Positions 1 through 14,163 of a stretch of 16,644 bases of DNA are shown piece by piece. This stretch comes from an uncultured Anaerolineae bacterium (lineage in GTDB: Bacteria > Chloroflexota > Anaerolineae > Anaerolineales > Villigracilaceae), in the NCBI GenBank assembly GCA_903854805.1, contig CAINXK010000132.1, positions 1-16,644 of the forward strand, read 5' to 3'. The translations under genes were made by a program, and so were the position numbers. The notes below the pieces were generated by a model. The model was not told where the DNA came from and did no database searches. It saw nothing but the letters and a program-made list of their open reading frames with translations. The first letter of the stretch is position 1; every line of letters starts with the position of its first letter.

Positions 1-2475
1 AGCTCAGTCTGCACCCCTGTTGGCGTCGCATTGGGAGCCACCTGGAATGTGGAATTGGTTGAACAGATTGGAAATGTACTCGGCGATGAAGTAAAGTCCA
101 AAGGGGCCCATATCTTATTGGCTCCAACAGTAAATATCCATCGTTCTCCTATTGCCGGGCGTAATTTTGAATGTTATTCCGAAGACCCCTATTTAAGTGG
201 AGAAATGGCAACCGCCTATATCAAGGGCATCCAAAATCGAGGTGTCGGTACATGCATTAAGCACTTTGTATGCAATGATCAGGAATTCGAACGCATGTCA
301 ATGAGTTCCGAAGTAGAAGAACGTCCACTCCGTGAGTTATACCTGGAACCCTTCCGAAAAGCGATCAAAAATGCCCATCCCTGGTCGGTGATGTCTGCTT
401 ATAACCGTGTGCGAGGCAGCTTCGCAAGCGAAAACACCTACACATTAAAAACCATACTCAAAGATGAATGGGGCTTTGATGGTCCAGTCATTTCTGATTG
501 GTATGGCACTTACTCCGACAATGTTCCGACGGGCGGATTGGATTTGGAAATGCCTGGCCCAGCGCGCTGGATGAACGCCGACAAAGTCAGGAGCGCGCTC
601 GCCAACGGCACATTAACCGAAACAGAGCTTTCTGACAAAGTCAGGCGCTTGCTTAAAGTAATCGAAAAGGCTGGATTATTCCAAAACCCCGAACTCCAAC
701 CTGAAAGGGGCGAAGACAGGTCAGCCCATCGCGAAATTATCCGATCTGCAGCAGGTGAAGCCATCGTTTTATTAAAAAATAAGGATGGTTTGCTACCTCT
801 GATTGGAGCGAAATCCATCGCGGTGATCGGTGAAAATGCGCGCTGGACTCAAATCCTGGGTGGAGGCAGTTCTGCAGTCACACCTCATTATGTGATTTCG
901 CCACTCGAAGGCATAAGAACCCGCGCTGGCCAGCAAGTAAAAGTTGAGTACGCGCCCGGATGTTTTATTCACCGAACCATGCCCGCACCTGACCCCGATA
1001 CACTCTCAACTGTAAACGGAGCTCAGGGCTTATTCGTCGAAATATTCAATAACCTTGACTTTTCGGGACCTGCCGCTTTTACTCAAGTAAATAAGCATGT
1101 TCAATTTGGTTGGTTTGGAGACTGTGTACCAAATGTTGACCAGTCTCGCTTCTCAGTTCGCCTGAGCGGTTTCTTTTCCCCGAAAGAAACAGGTAAGCAT
1201 GCTTTTGGGTTGGGAACGGTCGGCCGCGGCAAACTATTTATTGACAATAAAGAAGTCATCGATAACTGGCTTGAACCTGCGCCCTATGGACAAAAAACCA
1301 CCGAAATAGACATGCTTGCCGGCCAAAAATATGCCGTTAAAGTTGAGTATAACTGGGATGGCAACCCACTTTGGCGTTCGCTAAGTTTCAGTCATATGCC
1401 CCCACATGCCCCAGATCTACTGGCTGAAGCAGTGGAACTTGCCAGTCGCTCCGATGTGGTCATTCTGGTTGCAGGTCTGACTGGAGAATGGGAAGCCGAA
1501 GGATTTGACCGCCTGGATATGAAATTGCCAGGGAATCAGGATGAATTAATCGCCAGAGTAACAGCCGCCAATCCAAATACTATTGTTGTCCTCAATTCAG
1601 GTTCCCCTGTCGAAATGCCATGGGTCGACGAAGTCTCTAGTATATTACAGATCTGGTATGACAGCCAGGAGCAGGGAAACGCCCTGGCTGATGTACTTTT
1701 CGGAGATGTTACCCCCTCTGGCAAGCTGCCAACCACCTTCCCACGGCGGTTGCAGGATAACCCAGCTTATATAAACTTCCCCGGAGAGAATGGAAAGGTT
1801 TACTACGGGGAAGGCTTGTTCGTCGGGTATCGTTATTACGATAAAAAAGCGGTCGAACCTCTATTTCCTTTTGGGCATGGACTTTCCTATACAACTTTTG
1901 AGTATAAAAACCTGCTTGTGCCCGAAAGTTTCAAGATCGAGACTGGTTTGACTGTAAGATTGGATGTAAAAAACACAGGAAAATGTATTGGAAAGGAAAT
2001 CATTCAAGTCTATGTTCGTGATGTGCGCTCGAGCCTGGTCCGCCCAGAAAAAGAACTTAAATCTTTTTGCAAAATCGAACTCCAACCAGGAGAGAGCAAA
2101 ACGATCAAACTCAACCTTGATAAAGAAGCTTTCTGGTTTTACGACCCCGCGCGTGGAGGCTGGATCACGGAGCCAGGCGAGTTCGAAATTATGGTTGGCG
2201 CATCCTGTCAGGATATCCGATTAATCGCCAGATCGATGCTGGCCGCCGCTCCCATGCGCCACGACACGCGCTTGCATACCGGAATGGCGTTACGCACGGT
2301 CTTAAATGATCCCGCTGGTTACGCAGCCTTCGCCAAACATTTTCGCGAATGGATCAAGGCCCCCGAATTGCAAAATATCCTCGATATGACAATTGACGAA
2401 ATTGCAACGTTTGCGCCAAATATTGTTACTCCAGAGAAACTATTTGCGCTCTCTGATGACCTCGCAAAGGTTTGA
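1..2475 (+). CDS. GH3 beta-glucosidase with PA14 insert (5' partial)
   Basis: Glycoside hydrolase family 3 enzyme, expected to remove terminal beta-linked glucose from oligosaccharides with retention. The frame is open from base 1 (SSVCTPVGVALGATWN), so the true start lies upstream; the TTG at 31 is internal. Seen in order: the (beta/alpha)8 domain with KHFVCNDQEFER and the nucleophile Asp of VISDW (codon 496-498); the alpha/beta sandwich domain; a PA14-like insert at about 1015-1400; the acid/base Glu in EWEAEGFDR (codon 1498-1500); a fibronectin III-like domain (GKEIIQVYVRD) to about 2220; and an extra helical tail of roughly 80 residues. The EWEAEGFDR context and PA14 insert match the Kluyveromyces BglI type of GH3. 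Whether a signal peptide exists cannot be seen. Neighbouring phosphorylases suggest a role in intracellular beta-glucan oligosaccharide breakdown. The exact linkage (beta-1,2, 1,3 or 1,4) is not determined. Confidence 0.93.
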   Translation, partial: SSVCTPVGVALGATWNVELVEQIGNVLGDEVKSKGAHILLAPTVNIHRSPIAGRNFECYSEDPYLSGEMATAYIKGIQNRGVGTCIKHFVCNDQEFERMSMSSEVEERPLRELYLEPFRKAIKNAHPWSVMSAYNRVRGSFASENTYTLKTILKDEWGFDGPVISDWYGTYSDNVPTGGLDLEMPGPARWMNADKVRSALANGTLTETELSDKVRRLLKVIEKAGLFQNPELQPERGEDRSAHREIIRSAAGEAIVLLKNKDGLLPLIGAKSIAVIGENARWTQILGGGSSAVTPHYVISPLEGIRTRAGQQVKVEYAPGCFIHRTMPAPDPDTLSTVNGAQGLFVEIFNNLDFSGPAAFTQVNKHVQFGWFGDCVPNVDQSRFSVRLSGFFSPKETGKHAFGLGTVGRGKLFIDNKEVIDNWLEPAPYGQKTTEIDMLAGQKYAVKVEYNWDGNPLWRSLSFSHMPPHAPDLLAEAVELASRSDVVILVAGLTGEWEAEGFDRLDMKLPGNQDELIARVTAANPNTIVVLNSGSPVEMPWVDEVSSILQIWYDSQEQGNALADVLFGDVTPSGKLPTTFPRRLQDNPAYINFPGENGKVYYGEGLFVGYRYYDKKAVEPLFPFGHGLSYTTFEYKNLLVPESFKIETGLTVRLDVKNTGKCIGKEIIQVYVRDVRSSLVRPEKELKSFCKIELQPGESKTIKLNLDKEAFWFYDPARGGWITEPGEFEIMVGASCQDIRLIARSMLAAAPMRHDTRLHTGMALRTVLNDPAGYAAFAKHFREWIKAPELQNILDMTIDEIATFAPNIVTPEKLFALSDDLAKV

Positions 2476-8107: not shown

Positions 8108-11100
8108 ATGCAGAAAGAATTATTTGTCGGGAATAGCGTTCTCCATACTTCGGATATTGGCGGTGTCACAGGAGAATACGTCTCCATACTTGGGGATGAG
8201 TTTTACCGCATCGGTCATTATGACCGGATGCAACCATTCTTTATGAGTATCGTAAGCAATTCAGATCATTGGATGTTTATATCCAGTACTGGTGGTCTTT
8301 CTGCAGGTCGATCAAACGCAGAGTCAGCCATCTTTCCCTATTACACTGACGATAAAATCACCGAAAACCATCCCAACACAGGCTCAGTTTCCATCTTCCA
8401 AATCAAACGCGGGCAAAAAACCTATTTATGGGAACCGTTTTCTAGCCGTTTCGAAAACCTGTACCAAATCGAACGTAATATTTACAAAAATATACTGGGC
8501 AATCAGCTGATATTTGAAGAAATTAACTACGACCTGCATCTCATGTTCAGAACCATTTGGCGAACCAGCGAAAAATTCGGTTTTGCCAAAACAAGCTGGA
8601 TAATAAATACCGCAAATTCAGAATGTAACCTGGAAATCATTGACGGTTTACAAAATATCTTACCCTACGGCGCCACCACTGCGCTGCAAACCGCCTTTAG
8701 TAATTTACTAAATGCATATAAACGCGCTGAACTAGAACCAGTAACCGGATTGGGCATTTTTTCGCTTAGCTCAACCTTGACCGATCTCGCCGAACCCAGT
8801 GAGTCGTTGAAAGCCACGGTTGCCTGGCAATATGGATTGGAAAATCCCTATTACTTATTATCCACCCAGCAATTGGATTCCTTTCGAAGCGGGGCTGACC
8901 TCACCCCAGAACTTGACATCCGTGGAAGTCGTGGTGCCTACCTGGTCAATGCCAGCTTTGGTGTTGCAGCGGGGAAAGAAAAAGAATGGACCATCGTTTC
9001 TGATGTTAATCAAGACGGTAATAGCATCGCAAAACTTCTGATCCAACTGGAACAAAATTCGGGAAACCTTTTTTCTGAGCTTAAACATGATATTGAGCTA
9101 GGCAGCGCTGACCTGCGGCGCATTGTCGCCAGTGCTGACGGATTACAGGTCTCTAAAGATCGCCTGAGTACAGCTCACCATTTTTCAAACGTATTATTTA
9201 ATTGCATGCGTGGGGGTATTTTTGCTGAAAATTACTTGATTCAAAAAAACGATTTTCTGGATTTCATCAAAACCCGCAACCAGGCTGCACTGCTGAATTA
9301 CCCGGAATTCTTTGCAGCCTTGCCCGAAACATTTAACTCTTCCGAACTGATTTCTCGCGCCGCAACCATCCAGGCAGCAGCCGATATTCGCCGTCTTTGC
9401 TTCGAATACCTGCCACTCACCTTTAGCCGGCGTCATGGCGACCCCAGCCGTCCATGGAACAAATTCTCGATCAACCTTAGAAAACCGGACGGCTCACGCC
9501 GCCTGGATTATCAAGGTAATTGGCGTGATATTTTTCAGAACTGGGAACCACTGGCCTGGTCATACCCAGAATTTATTGAGGCAATGGTCTGCAAATTTCT
9601 GAATGCCACAACTGCTGATGGCTATAATCCATACCGCGTCACTCGCGACGGTGTCGAATGGGAAGCCCCAACTCCTAACGATCCGTGGGCAAACATCGGG
9701 TACTGGGGTGATCATCAAATTGTTTATCTGGAGAGTCTGCTCGAAATTTCCCACAGGTTTCATCCTGGTCGATTAGAAGAATTGCTTGGAGAAAAAATAT
9801 TTAGCCATGCAAATGTGCCCTATCACATCAAACCATATGCTGACCTGCTCATTGATCCGTTTGCCACGATTATCTTTGACCGGCAGTGCGATGACCTGGT
9901 CAAGAGTCGCATCAAAAGCCTTGGCACGGATGGCAGACTATTATTAAACTCGGACGGTCAGGTTTTTCACGTAACCTTGCTGGAAAAATTAATGACGCTT
10001 TTGCTGGCCAAACTGGCTAACTTTGTACCCGATGGTGGTATTTGGATGAACACCCAGCGACCAGAATGGAATGATGCCAATAACGCCCTGGTCGGTAAAG
10101 GACTGTCAATGGTTACCCTGGGTTATCTCCGGCGCTTTATGGTCTTCACCAGACAACTCTTGCTCGAAAACCACAATTCAGCGTTCATGGTTACCGCAGA
10201 AATTGCAGATTTTTTCTCCAGCATAGCTTCGATTCTCCAGAATTATTCAAGTTTACTGCACGCTAATTCTGGCTTTGAACCCGACACTCGCCGGCAGGTC
10301 ATGGATGCACTTGGCCAGGCTGGCAGTACATATCGGACGAATTATTATCAAAACGGTTTTTCTGATAAATACAAAACTTTGCAGAAAGCGGAGCTCTCGG
10401 ATTTTCTAAGTCTATCCCTCGAGTATATCGAGCAGTCTCTCAAAAATAATCAGCGCCCAGATAAGCTTTTTCATTCGTACAACATTCTTCAACTCAAAGA
10501 TCGCGAAGCCAGCATCAAGCACCTGGATCCAATGCTTGAAGGACAGGTTTCAATTCTTGGGTCAGGATTACTTTCCAGCGCTGAAGCCTTAAGCGTCCTG
10601 GATAATCTCAGAAATTCAGCGCTTTTCCGGCAGGACCAGCTTAGCTACACTCTTTATCCGGATCGCAACCTACCCGGGTTCATTCAGAAAAACCTCATCG
10701 AAAAAGAAAAGATTCTCGGATCCAAACTGATCGAAAAATTGATCGACCAAAAGGATCAAAGATTAATCAGCCAGGATCTGAAAGGAAATTATCATTTCAA
10801 TGGCACCTTCAAGAATGCCCGGGATGTAAAAGCTGCCCTCAGTGATTTGCGGAAATCCGAAACTTACCAGGAATTGGTTGACTCTGAAACCGAATTTATA
10901 CTGGAGCTGTTTGAAGGTTTGTTCAAACACGATGCATTTACCGGACGATCGGGTACTTTTTTTGCTTACGAAGGGTTGGGCAGCATTTACTGGCACATGG
11001 TCTCCAAGCTTATGTTAGCCGTGCAGGAGAATTTTTTCCATGCGGTAGAAATACAAGCGCCAACTGAAACCACCCAGCAGCTTTCCAAATACTATTATGA

Positions 11101-11581
11101 AATTCGATCAGGCCTGGGCTTTAACAAATCGCCAGATATTTACGGCGCATTTCCCACCGACCCATACTCACACACACCTGCCGGTCAGGGTGCCAAACAG
11201 CCAGGGTTGACAGGCCAGGTGAAAGAAGAAATATTAACTCGTCTGCGAGAGCTTGGGATATTTGTTAATAATGGACAGATTTTCTTTAATCCAATCTTAT
11301 TGCGACCATCGGAATTGTTAGTCCAGCCTGAAATATTTACCTACATAGCGGTAAATGGACTTTCAAATGAAATTGAGCTTCTCCCAGGCTCTTGCGCTTG
11401 TACGCTTTGCCAGGTACCCATGGTTATCCAATCGGGTGCAGATCAGCAGCTGAAGATCATATTTTCGGATAACAGTTTTGAAGAGTTTTCAGGCAACAAC
11501 CTTGACGTTGAAACTTCAAAACACATATTCGAACGAGATAATCATATCAAGCAAATTACATTTACTACTTTGATGAGGTAA
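8108..11581 (+). CDS. large GH94-like protein, probable oligosaccharide phosphorylase of uncertain family
   Basis: A 1157-residue cytoplasmic protein of the size seen for oligoglucan phosphorylases (GH94 beta-1,2-oligoglucan, GH149 and GH161 beta-1,3-oligoglucan enzymes). Its N-terminal part has ISSTGGLSAGRSNAES, which parallels the TAGG or HTGG block of the two GH94 neighbours. About residues 1-350 look like a beta-rich sandwich domain. The helical middle has GNWRDIFQNWEP, then PNDPWANIGYWGDHQIVYLE (Asp535, His536), like the DDHLW block of GH94. RPEWNDANNALVG places Asp656 where GH94 has its general acid. Near the C-terminus are YEGLGSIYWHMVSKL (954-968), PYSHTP (1019-1024) and QPGLTGQVKEE (1031-1041), in the place of the GH94 SGTA loop. 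Overall similarity to the neighbours is too low to name a family. An alternative is a non-catalytic or hydrolytic relative. GH1 follows after three bases. Confidence 0.75.
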   Translation: MQKELFVGNSVLHTSDIGGVTGEYVSILGDEFYRIGHYDRMQPFFMSIVSNSDHWMFISSTGGLSAGRSNAESAIFPYYTDDKITENHPNTGSVSIFQIKRGQKTYLWEPFSSRFENLYQIERNIYKNILGNQLIFEEINYDLHLMFRTIWRTSEKFGFAKTSWIINTANSECNLEIIDGLQNILPYGATTALQTAFSNLLNAYKRAELEPVTGLGIFSLSSTLTDLAEPSESLKATVAWQYGLENPYYLLSTQQLDSFRSGADLTPELDIRGSRGAYLVNASFGVAAGKEKEWTIVSDVNQDGNSIAKLLIQLEQNSGNLFSELKHDIELGSADLRRIVASADGLQVSKDRLSTAHHFSNVLFNCMRGGIFAENYLIQKNDFLDFIKTRNQAALLNYPEFFAALPETFNSSELISRAATIQAAADIRRLCFEYLPLTFSRRHGDPSRPWNKFSINLRKPDGSRRLDYQGNWRDIFQNWEPLAWSYPEFIEAMVCKFLNATTADGYNPYRVTRDGVEWEAPTPNDPWANIGYWGDHQIVYLESLLEISHRFHPGRLEELLGEKIFSHANVPYHIKPYADLLIDPFATIIFDRQCDDLVKSRIKSLGTDGRLLLNSDGQVFHVTLLEKLMTLLLAKLANFVPDGGIWMNTQRPEWNDANNALVGKGLSMVTLGYLRRFMVFTRQLLLENHNSAFMVTAEIADFFSSIASILQNYSSLLHANSGFEPDTRRQVMDALGQAGSTYRTNYYQNGFSDKYKTLQKAELSDFLSLSLEYIEQSLKNNQRPDKLFHSYNILQLKDREASIKHLDPMLEGQVSILGSGLLSSAEALSVLDNLRNSALFRQDQLSYTLYPDRNLPGFIQKNLIEKEKILGSKLIEKLIDQKDQRLISQDLKGNYHFNGTFKNARDVKAALSDLRKSETYQELVDSETEFILELFEGLFKHDAFTGRSGTFFAYEGLGSIYWHMVSKLMLAVQENFFHAVEIQAPTETTQQLSKYYYEIRSGLGFNKSPDIYGAFPTDPYSHTPAGQGAKQPGLTGQVKEEILTRLRELGIFVNNGQIFFNPILLRPSELLVQPEIFTYIAVNGLSNEIELLPGSCACTLCQVPMVIQSGADQQLKIIFSDNSFEEFSGNNLDVETSKHIFERDNHIKQITFTTLMR
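11575..11579 (+). promoter_or_regulatory. ribosome binding site of GH1 gene
   Basis: GAGGT lies inside the last codons of the 1157-residue gene, five bases before the GH1 ATG at 11585. The site and the three-base gap indicate translational coupling of the two genes. Confidence 0.65.
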
Positions 11582-13057: not shown

Positions 13058-14144
13058 TTATCCCTTTGCCTGGCGCAGAAAGGCTTCCATAAATCCATTT
13101 AATGTGCCATCCAAAACAGACTGCGTATTGCCGACTTCATGGTCAGTACGGTGATCTTTGACAAGTTGATAGGGGTGCAAGACATAGGAACGGATCTGGC
13201 TACCCCATTCCGCCTTGGTGTAATCGCCTTTCAACACTGAAATTTCTGCTTCCTGCTTGGCATGTTGGATCTGAAGCAAGCGTGCCCGCAAAACCTGCAT
13301 CGCTGCTTCCTTGTTCTGCATTTGAGAACGTTCATTCTGGCAGGTCACAACAATCCCTGTCGGCAAGTGAGTTAGCCGAATAGCGGTAGAATTTTTTTGA
13401 ACATTTTGGCCACCGGCACCCGATGAGCGAAAAACATCAATTTTTATATCATTTGGATCAACTGGAACTTCCGGACTGTCCATGGCAACTTGCGGAAGAA
13501 CCTCTACAAGCGCAAAAGAAGTATGCCGGCGATGAGCAGCATCGAAAGGAGAAAGACGAACCAGGCGGTGCACGCCCATTTCTGAGCGCAAATAACCATA
13601 AACATAATTACCGCCGATCGCGATCGTTACAGATTTGATCCCAGCTTCTTCACCAGGGGTCATATCGATAATCTCGGCTGAAAATTTTTGAGACTCTGCC
13701 CAACGCAAATACATCCTCTCGATCATCTCAGCCCAATCCTGGCTATCAGTTCCACCCGCACCAGCATGGATAGCCAGGATGGCATCGCCGCTATCATACG
13801 GCCCTGAAAGCATAGCTGTGAAAGAGCGTTTTTCCAGTTCTGTCTCAATGGTTTTTATTTCAGCTTCGATATCAGCGAACAGACTTTCATCCTTCATGTC
13901 GGCTAATTCGCGCACATCACGAATACGCTGCTGAAAGGTATGCCAATCTTCCAGCTCGTCGCGAAGGGTGGCGGCTGTTTTGCTTATTTTCTGGGCTCGC
14001 TGAGGGTCATCCCAAAAATCAATGGCCGCGATTTGTGTATCTAGTTCAGAAAGTTGTTTTTCCTTTGAAAGTAAGTCAAAGCCGCACCATTAATTGCGAA
14101 GTCAGCTCCCCAGCTTGCCGCAGTCGGTCGATCAAATCCTGCAT
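13058..14144 (-). CDS. prfB: peptide chain release factor 2, with programmed +1 frameshift
   Basis: Class I release factor that reads UAA and UGA and triggers peptidyl-tRNA hydrolysis in the ribosome. The reading frame starts at ATG 14144-14142 behind GGAGG (14153-14149). It runs MQDLIDRLRQAGELTSQLMVRL to an in-frame TGA (14078-14076) and continues in the +1 frame as DLLSKEKQLSELD to the stop at 13060-13058. The joined product is 361 residues, close to the usual 365. The SPF codon-recognition motif is at residues 198-200, and the catalytic GGQ (SGAGGQNVQKN) is at 244-246. The unframeshifted frame alone would lack about 76 N-terminal residues and have only a GTG start at 13915. The gene lies 19 bases downstream of ftsY. 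Regulation is autogenous: low RF2 activity favours the shift. It is not a pseudogene. Confidence 0.96.
14075..14088 (-). promoter_or_regulatory. prfB +1 recoding site
   Basis: On the - strand the mRNA reads GGUG, CGG, then CUU UGA C. CUU UGA C is the classical RF2 slippery site: tRNA-Leu slips from CUU onto UUU and the next codon becomes GAC. The GGUG (14088-14085) three bases before CUU could pair with the end of the anti-Shine-Dalgarno and stimulate slippage. It is weaker than the AGGGGG of Escherichia coli. The Leu codon is residue 22, near the Escherichia coli position of 25. Confidence 0.93.
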
Positions 14145-14148
14145 GTTG

Positions 14149-14153
14149 CCTCC
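14149..14153 (-). promoter_or_regulatory. prfB ribosome binding site
   Basis: GGAGG four bases before the ATG at 14144 on the - strand. It supports this start over the internal GTG at 13915, and places initiation just after the ftsY stop. Confidence 0.75.
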
Positions 14154-14163
14154 ATCATATTTT

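Follow-up and report, generated by a model that had tools for sequence, protein, structure and literature searches.

A GH149 family protein, predicted to be a beta-1,3-glucan phosphorylase, is encoded downstream of two GH94 genes in an uncultured Anaerolineae bacterium

Family GH149 was described in 2018 (PMC5827456) and its structure followed in 2019 (PMC6771811). Two members, Pro_7066 and EgP1, phosphorolyse beta-1,3-glucooligosaccharides with formation of alpha-glucose 1-phosphate (PMC5827456), and a review describes GH149 enzymes as inverting, with alpha-glucose 1-phosphate as product (PMC8950772). The founding study assigned most members to Proteobacteria and Bacteroidetes and recognised a eukaryotic branch in Euglenophyceae (PMC5827456), and Chloroflexota is listed for GH1 only (PMC11919646). 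Tandems of GH94 and GH161 have been called the first cases in which genes of two phosphorylase families adjoin (PMC6484121), and the laminaribiose phosphorylases GH94_B and GH94_C are QCO92990.1 and QCO92945.1 (PMC8950772). Here we analyze a stretch of 16,644 nucleotides, the window, from an uncultured Anaerolineae bacterium of the Chloroflexota (assembly GCA_903854805.1, contig CAINXK010000132.1). It contains a large unannotated open reading frame downstream of two GH94 genes, GH94a and GH94b. The encoded protein of 1157 residues, the target, is a GH149 member and almost certainly a beta-1,3-glucan (laminaridextrin) phosphorylase, an enzyme type that releases glucose from beta-1,3-glucans such as laminarin by means of phosphate.

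The reading frame itself is well defined. An in-frame stop is located two codons 5' of the ATG, and no earlier in-frame start follows that stop. The closest homologue among the matches listed, with the target itself excluded, shares 68% identity with it at 100% coverage; hence the frame, which had been picked out in an initial annotation made from the sequence, is real and not a product of chance. The target matches the NCBIfam equivalog model NF058639 ('1,3-beta-D-glucan phosphorylase, GH149 family') with 1629.5 bits at a curated cut-off of 1150 bits, and the match spans residues 20-1152 and profile positions 5-1131 of 1134. In a search of solved structures, which returned four matches in all up to an expectation value (E) of 10, Pro_7066 (PDB 6HQ6) aligns to residues 18-1152 with 1248.9 bits. 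The remaining matches are 9QQK (GH161) with 48.9 bits, 9H8V with 47.3 bits and a laminaribiose phosphorylase with 12.6 bits. The entry 9H8V is labelled cellobiose phosphorylase, but we count it as GH161 because a GH161 protein fits both entries equally well (883 bits on 9H8V, 882 on 9QQK). A model-based comparison shows that the whole-length fold agrees with GH149, so that family membership and fold are both computational observations. The initial annotation had named GH149 as one candidate for an oligoglucan phosphorylase of the GH94 clan, and both NF058639 and 6HQ6 bear this out.

The active-site residues of Pro_7066 named in the structure paper are W651/N652/D653, R470/D471, H959 and E951 (PMC6771811). 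Mapped via sequence alignments together with that paper, all seven are identical in the target, namely R473, D474, W654, N655, D656, E955 and H963, and they are invariant in 31/31 sequences, a set of the target and 30 homologues chosen from 120 listed. Conservation of the active site is thereby observed by computation as well. Asp656 aligns with D653 of Pro_7066 and is likely to be the general acid, as had been suggested earlier. The other landmarks pointed out before are all present, with TGG at residue 61, GDH at 534-536, WND at 654-656 and TGQ at 1035, as are the peptides YEGLGSIYWHMVSKL at 954 and PYSHTPAGQGAKQPGLTGQ at 1019. The idea that these two peptides form a signature of the protein's own does not survive the comparison. 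YEGLGSIYWHMVSKL, which holds Glu955 and His963, has the same letters throughout in Pro_7066, and PYSHTPAGQGAKQPGLTGQ is close to Pro_7066 and departs from it at a few positions. Both GH149 insert domains (Dom 1 and Dom 2) are covered by the alignment with short gaps only, at approximately residues 371-432 and 856-942, positions that we derived by hand from the alignments.

Catalysis, linkage specificity, cellular location and pathway of the target are taken by analogy from characterised relatives. Like Pro_7066 and EgP1, the target most probably phosphorolyses beta-1,3-glucooligosaccharides with inversion, starting at the non-reducing end; for a GH149 enzyme, substrates down to laminaribiose would be expected. 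The glucose at the non-reducing end would sit in the -1 subsite formed by Arg473/Asp474 and Glu955, and phosphate bound near His963 would attack its anomeric carbon while Asp656 would protonate the leaving oxygen. The expected products are alpha-glucose 1-phosphate and a chain shortened by one glucose. The cluster as a whole probably processes beta-glucan fragments, in which the GH94 enzymes would act on disaccharides and the GH1 and GH3 beta-glucosidases could hydrolyse the remainder.

Could the target instead represent an undescribed phosphorylase type of the GH94 clan, as proposed in the initial annotation? The observed divergence from GH94 is right: no Pfam family, including Glyco_hydro_94 and GH94_b-supersand, matches the target at E<=1, whereas both neighbouring GH94 proteins match Glyco_hydro_94. 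All 120 listed relatives are nameless or called 'hypothetical protein'. The target looks novel by eye, however, partly because Pfam has no matching model, and a new type is contradicted by the whole-length match to a described family above the curated cut-off and by a solved and assayed homologue with a fold identical in kind. The annotation itself had named a confident whole-length match to a characterised family as the observation that would speak against it, and NF058639 and 6HQ6 both provide one. Together with the fold comparison, these matches lead us to reject an undescribed type, which we regard as highly improbable. Membership in GH94 is rejected as well, as no Pfam GH94 model is among the matches (0 families at E<=1). 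A GH161 beta-1,3-glucan phosphorylase would require acceptors of at least two glucoses; glucose serves as acceptor for the characterised GH149 enzymes but not for PapP, a GH161 enzyme (PMC6484121). With 48.9 bits in three stretches for GH161 against 1248.9 bits for GH149, this assignment is rejected and has practically negligible probability.

Several points weigh against the reading of the target as a GH149 beta-1,3-glucan phosphorylase. Pfam offers no model for it. The predicted local distance difference test (pLDDT) of the structural model is below 50 for the catalytic loop 648-663 and for segment 944-959, which holds Glu955, so that the placing of both rests on the sequence alignment and not on the model. 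The neighbouring GH94a is cellobiose-phosphorylase-like, and the cluster is for this reason not restricted to beta-1,3 linkages. Finally, 3/8 residues of the laminarihexaose surface site of Pro_7066 are kept in the target (Y997, E998, R1066), and chain-length preference may therefore differ. The changes are, in Pro_7066 numbering, K831 to R, E838 to Q, Y841 to L, E982 to T and E990 to K. The altered surface site and the nature of GH94a would also fit a GH149 family protein with shifted substrate, for example another linkage or mixed-linkage oligosaccharides. We consider such a shift unlikely. The donor-site residues are unaltered, and all three GH149 enzymes in a review are listed as beta-1,3 (PMC8950772). 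The surface site also differs from one relative to another: of the 31 sequences, 28 have Asp and 2 have Glu at position 998, and at position 994, where the target has Lys, 13 have Glu and 11 have Asp. This site is a feature of Pro_7066 that does not define GH149, and it is less conserved in GH149 sequences more distant from Pro_7066 (PMC6771811). We conclude that the large unannotated frame encodes a typical representative of GH149 rather than a phosphorylase of a new kind.

The target is part of a series of genes on the plus strand in the order GH3 (partial), GH94a, GH94b, cupin-like, target and GH1. The two GH94 genes, the cupin and the GH1 gene had been recognised before; the target was said to be situated between the GH94 genes, but both are upstream of it. 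GH94a is close to solved cellobiose phosphorylases. Against solved structures, GH94b scores 502 bits with cellobiose phosphorylase 3QDE, 448 bits with chitobiose phosphorylase 1V7V and 56.5 bits with laminaribiose phosphorylase, and is, judged from its sequence, distant from every solved GH94. The cupin-like gene, between GH94b and the GH149 gene, resembles uncharacterised CA_C3497 (3D0J). Beyond GH1, prfB- and ftsY-like genes on the minus strand are followed by a thioredoxin gene on the plus strand. The reading frame of prfB (peptide chain release factor 2; 13058-14163, minus strand) changes at CTTTGAC, position 14081, presumably the usual programmed frameshift site of this gene, and the list of open reading frames covers its 3' part only.

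Features of the window around the GH149 gene, with coordinates in the window
Feature	Coordinates	Strand	Basis
GH3 family protein carrying PA14 and Fn3-like domains; its 5' end lies beyond the window	1..2475	+	PF00933, PF01915, PF07691, PF14310
GH94a, cellobiose-phosphorylase-like, 833 aa	2606..5107	+	PF17167 541 bits; 1081 bits to cellobiose phosphorylase 8HO7
GH94b, second GH94 phosphorylase, 804 aa	5128..7542	+	PF17167 432 bits
Small cupin-like protein, 146 aa	7544..7984	+	Cupin_2 23.6 bits (curated cut-off 27.2); PDB 3D0J E 2.8e-10
Target, predicted GH149 beta-1,3-glucan phosphorylase, 1157 aa	8108..11581	+	ATG open reading frame
Arg473-Asp474, predicted to recognise the donor sugar phosphate (R470/D471 in Pro_7066)	9524..9529	+	alignment mapping
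Trp654-Asn655-Asp656 catalytic loop; Asp656 predicted general acid (D653 of Pro_7066)	10067..10075	+	alignment mapping
Glu955 to His963 (E951, H959 of Pro_7066), within YEGLGSIYWHMVSKL	10970..10996	+	alignment mapping
GH1 beta-glucosidase, 456 aa	11585..12955	+	PF00232 536 bits; TIGR03356 586 bits (cut-off 478.5)

Relatives of the target are numerous, with at least 7999 candidates in the protein collection at E 1e-3 or better, and 10 plasmid records carry GH149 relatives, each less than 60% identical. We kept 80 genome loci of at least 588 found. In a tree of the window and the first 40 of these loci, the target falls into an 11-row set with support 100/100, together with eight Chloroflexota and two Trueperaceae, a placement that makes a Chloroflexota source probable. 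We also surveyed 298 genomes from the class to which Ornatilinea apprima (locus L018) belongs, which we take to be Anaerolineae. NF058639 matches at E<=1e-3 in 37/298 genomes. The window provides a clear example of GH149 in Chloroflexota, with 14/298 genomes of this one class above the cut-off, and two more carry contig-cut pieces of 902 and 186 bits. Scores below 60 bits are found for 21/37 matches; going by their frame length and incomplete coverage, we take most of these to be GH161, L157 being the one checked.

The linkage of GH149 with GH94 does not seem to be general. Among the 80 genome loci, either GH94 of the window is matched in one (L017) and GH3 in 18, and neither GH1 nor cupin is matched in any, with many stretches cut by contig ends. 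Within the stretches fetched, neither GH94 is seen in 14/14 above-cut-off loci of the survey, a set that includes the 3.5 kb locus L090, almost wholly GH149; GH3 is present in 2/14. Starting from GH94b, 21 loci with at least 57% identity to it (G159, G147 and G062, 61-70% identical, were left out) contain GH94a in 15, GH1 in seven, GH3 in four, a cupin in one, GH149 in none and GH161 in one, L157, whose own frame was the GH161 query. In L157 (2-5815), a GH94b relative cut by the contig end (64% over 540 residues) is followed downstream by a frame of 1096 residues, which is GH161 with 882 bits to 9QQK. In L138, a cupin relative (54%) comes after GH94b. For five of the nearest relatives, the longest contigs listed with GH149 and with GH94b are equal in size (15611, 745168, 14595, 10755, 103416), from which we infer a probable linkage of the two. 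These relatives make the combination look like a local one. A regular partnership of GH149 with two GH94 genes is not supported, since the wider sample is against it outside close relatives. It is suggestive that GH149 and GH161 may occupy the same place beside GH94b. A possible but doubtful extension is a Chloroflexota beta-glucan cluster in which GH149 here, or GH161 in L157, joins a core GH94 pair and in which GH94b may have an unassigned acceptor or linkage specificity, for example as a separately evolved laminaribiose phosphorylase that serves GH149. The window also draws attention to the specificity of GH94b.

In the portions of the literature on GH149 and Chloroflexi available to us, we found no GH94-GH149 cluster of Chloroflexota. 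The published picture in these portions is extended in a small way by the Chloroflexota occurrence and by the gene order GH94-GH94-GH149. Bacteroidetes GH149 genes are described in polysaccharide utilization loci with susCD-like, GH16 and GH17 genes (PMC5827456), none of which we recognised within the 16.6-kb window. The GH94 laminaribiose, cellobiose and related phosphorylases are without the two GH149 insert domains (PMC6771811), and the target is without a Pfam GH94 match. With the GH161 beta-1,3-glucan phosphorylases (PDB 9GY9, 9QQK), the target shares the clan fold and, as predicted, the reaction type. The closest described system is Pro_7066 (PDB 6HQ6, 6HQ8). It differs from the target in 5/8 surface-site residues, but aligns with it over residues 18-1152, is 49% identical in a Foldseek alignment and shares with it 7/7 active-site residues and the domain order, including both insert domains.
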